From Candidatus Peribacteria bacterium RIFCSPHIGHO2_01_FULL_55_13 (GTDB lineage Bacteria > Patescibacteriota > Gracilibacteria > Peribacterales > Peribacteraceae): a DNA stretch of 51,314 nt. The notes beneath the pieces are model-generated. The model had not been told where the DNA came from, did no database searches, and saw only the letters and a program-made list of their open reading frames with translations. Positions 43,912 through 46,958 of this stretch are shown one piece after another; position 1 is the first letter of the stretch; each line of letters begins with the position of its first letter. The translations under genes and the position numbers were made by a program. The stretch spans positions 1 to 51,314 of the forward strand of contig MFXS01000041.1 in the NCBI GenBank assembly GCA_001788925.1, in the 5' to 3' direction.

Positions 43912-43924
43912 GGACAGCAGGGTC

Positions 43925-43945
43925 CCCTCTCCCATTGGGAGAGGG
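43925..43945. repeat. REP-like hairpin
   Basis: CCCTCTCCC, ATT, GGGAGAGGG: perfect 9-bp stem, followed by a second G-rich half. Common dispersed intergenic type. Confidence 0.75.
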
Positions 43946-44024
43946 ACAGGGAGAGGGGGTCGGGAGGAGGAAAGAAGCTGCACACGCGTGACCTGAGTCG
44001 ACATCACCAATGAATGCTTGCAAT

Positions 44025-44056
44025 AAAAAACGACCAGCATTGCTGCCGGCCGTTTT
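44025..44056. terminator. Bidirectional terminator
   Basis: ACGACCAGCA (44030-44039) pairs with TGCCGGCCGT (44044-44053); A6 on the left and T4 on the right give T-runs on both strands, and the minus-strand loop is GCAA. Serves the Gly/Cys peptide gene (minus) and the membrane protein gene (plus). Confidence 0.85.
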
Positions 44057-44081: not shown

Positions 44082-44150
44082 CTATCCGCCGCAGCCGCAT
44101 CCTCCGTCTTTGAGGCCGCAGGATCCGCAGCCACCACCGAAGGAAATCAT
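44082..44150 (-). CDS. 22-residue Gly/Cys-rich peptide under CIRCE control
   Basis: ATG 44150 to TAG 44084-44082: MISFGGGCGSCGLKD followed by GGCGCGG. Four Cys (8, 11, 18, 20; a CxxC and a CxC) and ten Gly. No signal peptide. It is a complete transcription unit: -35/-10 promoter overlapped by a CIRCE operator upstream, and a strong terminator 26 nt downstream. Composition suggests a metal-binding (metallothionein-like) or redox peptide; a modified peptide is another option. No homologue recognised. The regulatory frame makes it more than a chance ORF. Confidence 0.65.
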   Translation of the reverse strand: MISFGGGCGSCGLKDGGCGCGG

Positions 44151-44181
44151 TGAGTAGGGTGGTAAAAAATAGAACGACCAC

Positions 44182-44210
44182 AGTGTAATCGATACGAGAA
44201 TGTTTGTCTA
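44182..44210 (-). promoter_or_regulatory. Promoter of Gly/Cys peptide gene
   Basis: TAGACA (44210-44205), 17 nt, TACACT (44187-44182). The -35 overlaps the CIRCE element by 3 bp. Confidence 0.65.
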
Positions 44211-44234
44211 GCACTCTCATGGTGAGAGTGCTAA
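44208..44234 (-). promoter_or_regulatory. CIRCE element (HrcA operator)
   Basis: TTAGCACTC-N9-GAGTGCTAG on the minus strand: exact left half, 9-nt spacer, and 8 of 9 bases of the right half of the canonical TTAGCACTC-N9-GAGTGCTAA. HrcA binds this to repress heat-shock genes, usually groESL or dnaK operons. Here the only downstream gene on this strand is the Gly/Cys peptide. Confidence 0.92.
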
Positions 44235-44240
44235 TTCCCC

Positions 44241-45098
44241 CTAAAACGTATGTTTCTTCCCCAATGCATCGCGATGATACTTCCCAAACTCCTCAATCTT
44301 CACACACGCATCGTTTTTCACCACAGGACCTTCTGTACACAGACGGATGCCGAGAGGATCCACCACGCAGTTGCCGCAGATGCCGTACCCACATTTCATG
44401 TAACGCTCCAAAGAAAGCTGCGAAGGAATTTTGTACTTTGCCGTTAGTTCTGAGACGGCCTTGAGCATCATTTCGGGTCCGCATGCAAAGACTTGATCGA
44501 TGGGATCAGTATTTTTCATTTTTCCTTTTTCATTTTTCCTTTTCTTCTGGACCGCCTCCAGCATCTTCTCCAACTGCTGCACGTTAAACCCCTTGAATCC
44601 TTCCGAGCCGTCGTTGGTTGCGACGTGGAGTGATACATGCGGAAGGGATTCCAGTTCTTTCAGATACAGGAGATGTTCCTTGCTGCGCGCACCAACAAAG
44701 ACTTCCAGCGTGCAACCGTGGTGCACGGTTTCTGCGGCGACGAAGTACATGGGTGCCGCGCCGTAGCCGCCTGCGACGAGAGCGATGTGCTGGCCGGGTT
44801 TCCACTCATAGCAGGTGCCGAAAGGGCCGCGAAGACCTACGAGATCGCCCACCGAGCAGCGAGCGAGCGCTTCGGACATCGGACCCACGGCGAAGAACGT
44901 GATCTTGGTCTCCGCGCCGTTATCGAACGCGACGCTGAACGGCTTTTCATCGACACCGGGAAGCCAGAGCATCACAAATTGCCCCGGTCGCGCGCCGAGC
45001 GATCCGTCAAATGTGAAGGTGCGGACCATGTCGGTCTCCTGTTGTATCGCTTTAATGCGATAGGTCTTGGGAAGCCGGGACTGGAGCGGGATCGCCAT
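44241..45098 (-). CDS. pyrK: Dihydroorotate dehydrogenase electron-transfer subunit
   Basis: FAD and [2Fe-2S] protein that passes electrons from class 1B DHOD to NAD+. 285 residues: FAD domain with KPFSV, GPFGTCYEW; NAD domain AGGYGAAPMYFVA; Fe-S cluster Cys in CGYGICGNC and a later Cys in RLCTEGP. Residues about 185-196 (KKRKNEKGKMKN) come from a 7-bp repeat within the NAD domain. ATG lies 1 nt after the pyrD stop. Confidence 0.92.
   Translation of the reverse strand: MAIPLQSRLPKTYRIKAIQQETDMVRTFTFDGSLGARPGQFVMLWLPGVDEKPFSVAFDNGAETKITFFAVGPMSEALARCSVGDLVGLRGPFGTCYEWKPGQHIALVAGGYGAAPMYFVAAETVHHGCTLEVFVGARSKEHLLYLKELESLPHVSLHVATNDGSEGFKGFNVQQLEKMLEAVQKKRKNEKGKMKNTDPIDQVFACGPEMMLKAVSELTAKYKIPSQLSLERYMKCGYGICGNCVVDPLGIRLCTEGPVVKNDACVKIEEFGKYHRDALGKKHTF
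44512..44546. repeat. In-frame 7-bp repeat inside pyrK
   Basis: TTTTTCA, TTTTTCC, TTTTTCA, TTTTTCC, TTTTCTT: five units, 35 nt. Encodes a Lys/Asn-rich loop of about 12 residues where homologues have a short turn. Confidence 0.8.
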
Positions 45099-45099
45099 C

Positions 45100-46080
45100 T
45101 TATTTGTGGGTCATGGAAGTACCTTTCATGCCTCGCTGCTGAAGTTCCTGGTGCATGCCGCCAACGAGATCAGAAACATTATCCACTCCTTCGTTCGTAC
45201 ACCAGAGCTGCATCTCTTCGCAGACTGTACTGAAGACATCAATACCGCGATCAGCGACGGCCGTGCCGATGCCCACGAGAGACGCACCGGCCAGCATCAT
45301 TTCGATCGCGTCTTCTCCGGTATAGACGCCGCCCGTGCCGATGATCGGCACTTTGCCCCCGGTGGCTTCATAGACTTCCGCAACACAGCGGACGGCAATG
45401 GGCTTGAGCGCCGGCCCGGAAAGTCCTCCTTTATGGGCGGCGAGGATCGGCATGCGGCTCCGAAGATCGATTGCCATGCCCGGCCCGACGGTATTGATTG
45501 CCGTGATACCGTCAGCTCCCGCGGCGACGCACGCGGCCGCGATCTGGCCGATATTGGGAACGTTGGGCGTAAGCTTGGCGAACATAGGAATCTTTCCGAT
45601 CTCTTTGCGCACGGCTGTAAGAATCGACGCAGCTTCCCCCTCGTCTTCGGCGAAGAGTTTGCCCCGAAGTTTGAGGAATGTGGGTGTGGAGATATTCACT
45701 TCGATGAAATCAGGCTTCAGAGGTGCGATGGCCGCCGCCACCTCGGCGAATTCGGAGGCGCTGAGGCCGATAATGTTAGCAATGAGGGGAACCTGATGAT
45801 CCTTCATGAAGTCCCCAATCTCCTGACGCGCTTTCTCCGGGCCCGCATCCGGCACACCGACGGCATTGAGCATCCAGTGCTCTGTCGAAATGATCGTCGG
45901 GTTGACGTTGCCCTTATGCTCCTGCGGCCAAAGCGATTTTGTGGTGATAGCTCCTGCTCCGCTTGCGGTGACGAACCGCCAGCTGGATGCCGTAATGCCC
46001 ATGATACCGGAAGCGAGAACGGTCGGGTTTTCGAAGGTGACTCCGAGGATGGTCTGGGAGAGGTTCATCGGAACAATCAT
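45100..46080 (-). CDS. pyrD: Dihydroorotate dehydrogenase, class 1B catalytic subunit
   Basis: Oxidises dihydroorotate to orotate in pyrimidine synthesis. FMN-binding TIM barrel: NPTVLASGIMG, NAVGVPDAG, EVNISTPTF, FAKLTPNVPNI, NTVGPGMAIDL, GGLSGPALKPIA, IIGTGGVYTGEDAIEMMLAGASLVGIGTA. The residue after ISTP is Thr rather than the more usual Asn-Cys-Pro context, but the active-site Cys position of class 1B is hard to place without alignment. ATG 46080 chosen; 46068 is an alternative. Couples to pyrK. Confidence 0.93.
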   Translation of the reverse strand: MIVPMNLSQTILGVTFENPTVLASGIMGITASSWRFVTASGAGAITTKSLWPQEHKGNVNPTIISTEHWMLNAVGVPDAGPEKARQEIGDFMKDHQVPLIANIIGLSASEFAEVAAAIAPLKPDFIEVNISTPTFLKLRGKLFAEDEGEAASILTAVRKEIGKIPMFAKLTPNVPNIGQIAAACVAAGADGITAINTVGPGMAIDLRSRMPILAAHKGGLSGPALKPIAVRCVAEVYEATGGKVPIIGTGGVYTGEDAIEMMLAGASLVGIGTAVADRGIDVFSTVCEEMQLWCTNEGVDNVSDLVGGMHQELQQRGMKGTSMTHK

Positions 46081-46084
46081 AGCA

Positions 46085-46102
46085 GCACGCCTGCAGGCGT
46101 GC
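46085..46102. repeat. 18-bp perfect palindrome between pyrD and permease
   Basis: GCACGCCTGCAGGCGTGC. It fills the 23-nt gap; likely a REP-like unit or weak RNA hairpin inside the operon. Confidence 0.7.
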
Positions 46103-46103
46103 G

Positions 46104-46958
46104 CTAGACCGTTCGCTGTTTTGGGAAGAGCGTATCTCTTCGCACCCACACGGCAACAAAGAGGATCACGCCGAAAAGGATCAGGCGAACCGGACCAAGA
46201 ATATTCGCCGAGAGTGGAAGAAAGCGCATGCCTTCACGAAGAAGCGAAATGAGGACGAGCGAAAGCATGCAGCCGCGCACACTTCCGGGTCCTCCTGCGA
46301 CGACGACCGTGACGAAGAAGATAAACGCCGGATAGCCGAAGTCGCTCGGATGGACGAGATAAATGTACTGGTGGTACTGCACGTTGGTGAGCATCGCTCC
46401 GACGCCTCCGATAAGAAAAACAATGAGATGGATGAATGGACGGTCGATACCGAGTGCCTTGGCATGCCACTCATGTTCCGAAAGCGCCGTAAGCTTGCGC
46501 CCGAATGTTCCGCGATCAATCTTCCAGAGCACAAAGGCCCAGAGCACAGCAACAATCGTGCTGAAGATCATAAAATCCACCGTGGAATGCAAAAAGGGAA
46601 AGCGGGGAACACGGGGAATCCCGAGAGCACCGCGAGTAAGGCTCGTCCAGTTGAGTACAACCGCAAGCAGCGAGAGATGAACCGCGATGGACATGACGCC
46701 AAAGCCGTCGGCATCGAGCCGCAGGCTGAGCCATGCAAAAAACGCGGAGACGATCGCGGCGGCGGCAAAGCCGGCCACAAGTCCGAGAGGGTAACTGCCG
46801 AATGCCATCGTGGTGAGAAACGTCGCATATGCGGCGACGATGGAAACGCCGAGCGGGCCGAAGTGGAAAATTTTTCCCCTCCCGAAAATCAGGTTGAATC
46901 CCAAGATGTTCGGCGCACTCATGGCGATGATGGCGATGACGTGATAAACGAAATTCAT
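46104..46958 (-). CDS. Liv-type ABC permease (LivM-like)
   Basis: 284 residues, about eight membrane spans, with the LivM/LivH fold: FGRGKIFHFGPLGVSIVAAYATFL and the coupling segment FGRKLTALSEHEWHAKALGIDRP. Pairs with the other permease 6 nt upstream. LivM proteins with a longer C-terminal half exist; this one is compact. Confidence 0.88.
   Translation of the reverse strand: MNFVYHVIAIIAMSAPNILGFNLIFGRGKIFHFGPLGVSIVAAYATFLTTMAFGSYPLGLVAGFAAAAIVSAFFAWLSLRLDADGFGVMSIAVHLSLLAVVLNWTSLTRGALGIPRVPRFPFLHSTVDFMIFSTIVAVLWAFVLWKIDRGTFGRKLTALSEHEWHAKALGIDRPFIHLIVFLIGGVGAMLTNVQYHQYIYLVHPSDFGYPAFIFFVTVVVAGGPGSVRGCMLSLVLISLLREGMRFLPLSANILGPVRLILFGVILFVAVWVRRDTLFPKQRTV

Follow-up and report, generated by a model that had tools for sequence, protein, structure and literature searches.

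A family of cysteine–glycine micropeptide genes associated with the heat-shock operator CIRCE in the bacterial order Peribacterales

In bacteria, the heat-shock repressor HrcA and its DNA element CIRCE are known from the groESL and dnaK operons, and CIRCE-controlled genes are normally those of chaperones and proteases. Small Cys-rich peptides are known from other settings. Bacterial metallothioneins such as SmtA and MymT carry CxC and CxxC motifs, and tend to be about 50 aa in length. Low-molecular-weight thiols, such as glutathione, bacillithiol and phytochelatins, are made by enzymes and not by ribosomes. A CXC redox motif is found in Hsp33, and the CGC triad, with a disulfide potential of -167 mV, near that of the CGHC of PDI, mimics PDI (Woycechowsky and Raines, 2003, cited in PMC4316792). 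Here we describe an unannotated gene for a Gly/Cys peptide, placed behind a CIRCE in a member of the order Peribacterales. Its relation to the HrcA regulon lies in the sequence and promoter position of CIRCE and in the presence of hrcA in the same genome, but the target is a 22-aa Gly/Cys peptide instead of a chaperone or protease, and some genera use another operator. Compared with metallothioneins, the peptides of the family are shorter (8–29 aa), with no detectable similarity, no folded zinc finger and no recognised metal operator. With Hsp33 and the CGC peptides they share only thiol-pair motifs, without a folded domain. In the literature searched, no paper joins CIRCE/HrcA with candidate-phyla bacteria, and genes of 8–29 codons are invisible to standard annotation.

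The window analysed is a whole stretch of 51,314 nucleotides (contig MFXS01000041.1, assembly GCA_001788925.1, Candidatus Peribacteria bacterium RIFCSPHIGHO2_01_FULL_55_13), and the features of the locus are collected in the table. The original prediction, that a near-perfect CIRCE overlaps the -35 of a minus-strand promoter followed by a 22-residue Gly/Cys ORF and a terminator, was confirmed and proved to be understated. CIRCE has 1 mismatch to TTAGCACTC-N9-GAGTGCTAA, and 0 matches are expected in shuffled sequence at up to 3 mismatches. The -35 overlaps the end of CIRCE by 3 bases. The promoter scan expects 0.5 such sites by chance in the region, so that support for the promoter comes mainly from the same layout in relatives. 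The terminator was recognised by our own rule, whereas a mechanical terminator scan did not list it. Two corrections are needed. First, the promoter of the peptide gene lies only about 10 nt after the stop of pyrK, so the pyrDK transcript may also read into it. Second, CIRCE is not the only operator used by the family. In the same genome, the other strong CIRCE sites lie at groES (Cpn10), between dnaK and obgE, and at a Clp_N gene, whereas a 3-mismatch site at a contig edge looks like chance. Interestingly, one CIRCE sits between divergent dnaK and obgE (Obg GTPase) both in this genome and in G022 (loci L005, 1500-1590, and L015, 1500-1530; here and below, G, C, L and g numbers denote genomes, contigs, loci and genera of the set searched), so obgE may be in the HrcA regulon.

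Features of the micropeptide locus and its upstream neighbours in the window
Feature	Position	Strand	Description and support
CIRCE element (HrcA operator)	44208-44234		17 of 18 consensus bases
Promoter	44182-44210	minus	-35 TAGACA (44210-44205), 17 nt spacer, -10 TACACT (44187-44182); the same CTAGACA / TATACT layout recurs in relatives
5' leader	44151-44176	minus	pyrimidine tract (GTTCTATTTTTTACCACC), no Shine-Dalgarno; transcript start inferred
Micropeptide gene	44082-44150	minus	MISFGGGCGSCGLKDGGCGCGG, 22 aa, ATG to TAG; 4 Cys (CxxC and CxC), 10 Gly
Intrinsic terminator	about 44025-44054	minus	hairpin followed by TTTTTT, -14.8 kcal/mol
pyrK	44241-45098	minus	dihydroorotate dehydrogenase electron-transfer subunit; Pfam PF10418, PF00175; upstream of most copies
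pyrD	45100-46149	minus	dihydroorotate dehydrogenase; Pfam PF01180
CCCCTCTCCCATTGGGAGAGGGACAGGGAGAGGGGG repeat	43920-43966		between the micropeptide terminator and the next gene; similar stretch in G008 downstream of its copy

The gene was then searched for in relatives. A DNA search gave matches in all four other genomes of the genus. A pattern search for CIRCE, a gap, ATG, Cys and Gly hit 40 of 74 genomes of the order, and reading of the hits left 34 genomes with a Gly/Cys micro-ORF (35 copies), in which the gap from the GAGTG core of CIRCE to the ATG is 49–64 nt. A stricter pattern gave 33 of 353 genomes of the class, all in the order and none among the other 279. Four isolated hits elsewhere in the phylum (G390, G398, G546 and G628) have no Gly/Cys ORF at the CIRCE. 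A collection-wide DNA scan gave 13 contigs named Peribacteria, Peribacteraceae, Peribacter or Peregrinibacteria, of which 12 have the micro-ORF and one was examined only over a shortened stretch, and the 29 other contigs gave one chance hit, MTETCCG. More members without the CIRCE pattern were found by looking downstream of pyrK in genomes that lacked hits and by using the leader pattern. In total, 51 copies were found in 48 of 74 genomes and 25 of 40 genera: 38 with CIRCE (37 genomes of 20 genera), 1 with a decayed CIRCE (G030), 8 with another palindrome and 4 with no recognised operator. Looser candidates in G001, G029, G046, G059, G061, G062 and G063 are left out of the count. The searches rest on patterns of our choice without E-values, and the 26 genomes with no confirmed copy may be incomplete or diverged. 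hrcA is present in 68 of 74 genomes of the order. In two genomes, two copies lie near each other (G045:C13:506-783; G070:C35:69315-73278); in G070 each has its own CIRCE, and in G045 the second has none. The original prediction would have been refuted by a lack of conservation of the Cys pattern or of the CIRCE position in relatives, and this was not what was found. An HrcA-regulon micropeptide is therefore well supported, although the heat or metal stress named in that prediction remains an inference.

The peptides are 8–29 aa in length and consist of 65% Gly and Cys (Gly 339 and Cys 183 of 805 residues over the 50 tabulated copies). Acidic and basic residues balance (29 to 26), and there is no hydrophobic stretch. 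Of the 50 copies, 48 have CC, CxC or CxxC, and the two exceptions have CxxxC. In 27 the last residue is Cys, and in 21 one or two residues follow. The shortest forms are of 8 aa (MTGGCGCK and MTGPGCGC). All four Gly codons and both Cys codons are used. Substitutions between same-genus copies fall 109/86/309 on codon positions 1/2/3, and identical peptides differ only at third positions. The pN/pS over 45 same-genus pairs is 0.26, so the ORF looks translated and selected; this figure is approximate, because the pairs are not independent and pS is near saturation. The same kind of ORF is otherwise almost absent: a scan of 361,588 bp around the loci gave 50 Gly/Cys micro-ORFs, of which 49 are members. 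A chance ORF was rejected on this rarity and conservation. No Pfam or NCBIfam model matched at E <= 10, although the shortness of the peptides limits the power of this search, and all Rfam matches were below the gathering score. From sequence, it is close to certain that this is a real, conserved and regulated micropeptide gene.

Members share a leader with a pyrimidine tract (ATTTCTTTCCC) about 10–25 nt before the ATG and no Shine-Dalgarno. The leader motif was found in 72% of members, against 3.8% of long ORFs, whose starts are less certain, and 1.4% of random 40-mers. A similar leader precedes ORFs beginning MSKQDL in two genomes, which look like HU genes, so it may be a translation signal of highly expressed monocistronic mRNAs in this lineage rather than part of the function of the peptide. 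By a simple rule, 47 of 50 copies have a terminator. Because a terminator follows and downstream genes differ or converge, an attenuator or leader peptide for a downstream gene was rejected. pyrD and/or pyrK lies upstream on the same strand within 3 kb in 43 of 51 copies, and within 800 nt in 41. Some of these were found by looking there, but 31 of the 36 copies found by CIRCE patterns alone show it too. Genus g19 has the gene behind a PyrD with no PyrK match in the genome. This synteny therefore marks orthology. Joint transcription with pyrDK is possible in copies like that of the window, where CIRCE begins about 10 nt after pyrK.

In three genera (g19, g20 and g33), the copies carry TTGACAATTAGTTTAGTNCTAAACTATACT (with small variations), a palindrome in the -35/-10 spacer, in place of CIRCE. 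A search of the order for TAGTTNAGNNCTNAACTA with one mismatch gave 16 sites in 9 genomes. Eight are at the micropeptide genes, and seven of the other eight are in the same eight genomes. The reversed control pattern gave a similar number of sites (12), so number alone proves nothing, but those are scattered over other genomes, with two in G037. Of the seven sites, four sit just upstream of nitroreductase genes (G036, G037, G038 and G057; an MsrA gene lies beside those of G037 and G038), one at the start of an MFS transporter gene (G056), one at an ABC transporter (G056) and one elsewhere (G037). Such targets are typical of MarR-type repressors of quinone or drug stress, for example MhqR of S. 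aureus (PMC6798810), but a MarR-type regulator is suggested here only by the target genes, and the repressor was not identified. HxlR family members are absent from these three genera. An HxlR-family regulator gene lies about 1.1–1.2 kb downstream of the micropeptide in two genera (L090, G048:C29:10041-10301, and L091, G050:C1:826764-827024). The shared operator points to general thiol/xenobiotic stress rather than heat alone, so that control of the family by stress, as inferred from its operators, is not exclusively by HrcA.

What is constant in the family is a short, flexible pair of thiols embedded in glycine at or near the C-terminus, and everything else is variable. This fits a bulk chemical role better than a specific protein partner. 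We tentatively propose that the locus is a stand-alone gene repressed by HrcA, to be released when heat or proteotoxic stress inactivates HrcA, as at groES and dnaK, and that its short mRNA (about 150 nt) is translated into an unstructured peptide accumulating during stress as a ribosomally encoded small (di)thiol. It would bind soft metals released from damaged proteins, trap electrophiles, and exchange or reduce non-native disulfides, as glutathione-like thiols or minimal metallothioneins do elsewhere. In the three genera above, the gene would have been rewired to a different repressor that also appears to control nitroreductases and a drug-type transporter, consistent with this role. The proposal rests on sequence only, without expression, peptide or metal data, and less than even confidence is placed in it. 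The number of cysteines (2–7) and their spacing vary more than a specific site would allow, and conservation next to pyrD could mean a pyrimidine-linked role. A further-reaching reading, that these peptides do in Peribacterales the job that glutathione or bacillithiol does elsewhere, the regulator having been swapped during evolution while the peptide stayed, is not excluded but is doubtful; enzymatic thiol pathways were not searched in these genomes. If true, it would be a ribosomal alternative to enzymatically made small thiols in reduced genomes of uncultured bacteria.

Among other explanations, a minimal metallothionein-like peptide dedicated to one soft metal (Cu+, Zn2+, Cd2+ or As(III)), induced because metal stress unfolds proteins and so releases HrcA, survives best but is still unlikely. 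The density of CxC, CC and CxxC, the Gly linkers, and His near the end in a few copies (GHHG, CGH, CSH) are in its favour. However, no conserved metal-handling gene was found among the neighbouring gene clusters, forms with only two Cys in 8 aa are too small to bind a cluster as a monomer, and the alternate operator sits at nitroreductase and MFS genes. Less likely is a regulatory or chaperone-linked peptide that binds DnaK, DnaJ, GroEL or HrcA and tunes the heat-shock response. Although the gene belongs to the CIRCE set alongside groES, dnaK and clp, the peptide is low in hydrophobic residues and varies freely apart from Gly and Cys, and three genera have it without CIRCE. A small accessory of dihydroorotate dehydrogenase (PyrD/PyrK), for example for Fe-S or redox maintenance, is similarly improbable. 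It would account for the upstream pyr genes, but the gene has its own stress promoter and terminator, g19 has no PyrK match, and several copies sit away from pyr genes or inverted (G009, G041 and the first G070 copy); shared ancestry explains the synteny. A regulatory small RNA or HrcA decoy site with an incidental ORF, in which the leader, conserved more than in other genes, would be the active part, is very unlikely, since third-position changes dominate, pN/pS is low, length changes keep frame, ATG and stop, and no Rfam family was matched above the gathering score. The weakest is a precursor of a modified peptide natural product (azole- or thioether-type), whose cores the composition may resemble, because the 8–15 aa forms have no leader region and no conserved maturation gene was found in the neighbourhoods.

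Pyrimidine leaders were also found in front of other small Cys-containing genes. In G012, G014 and G025 (L194, L195 and L198), small membrane proteins with Cys-rich ends (MSCCSSGCCQPCGACK...) lie behind the same leader. Longer Cys-containing small proteins are present in G001 (L193), G062 (L205) and G046 (L223). The G001 protein has two CGCGSG-K..SECC units like the zinc-binding SEC-C motif, and the G046 and G062 ones are highly acidic; those of G001 and G062 have a similar pyrimidine leader. A further copy, MFGGKGGCGCG, has about 140 nt of identical upstream DNA in genomes of two different genera (L196 and L197; G020:C33 and G051:C33), which reflects either recent transfer or a mis-binned contig.
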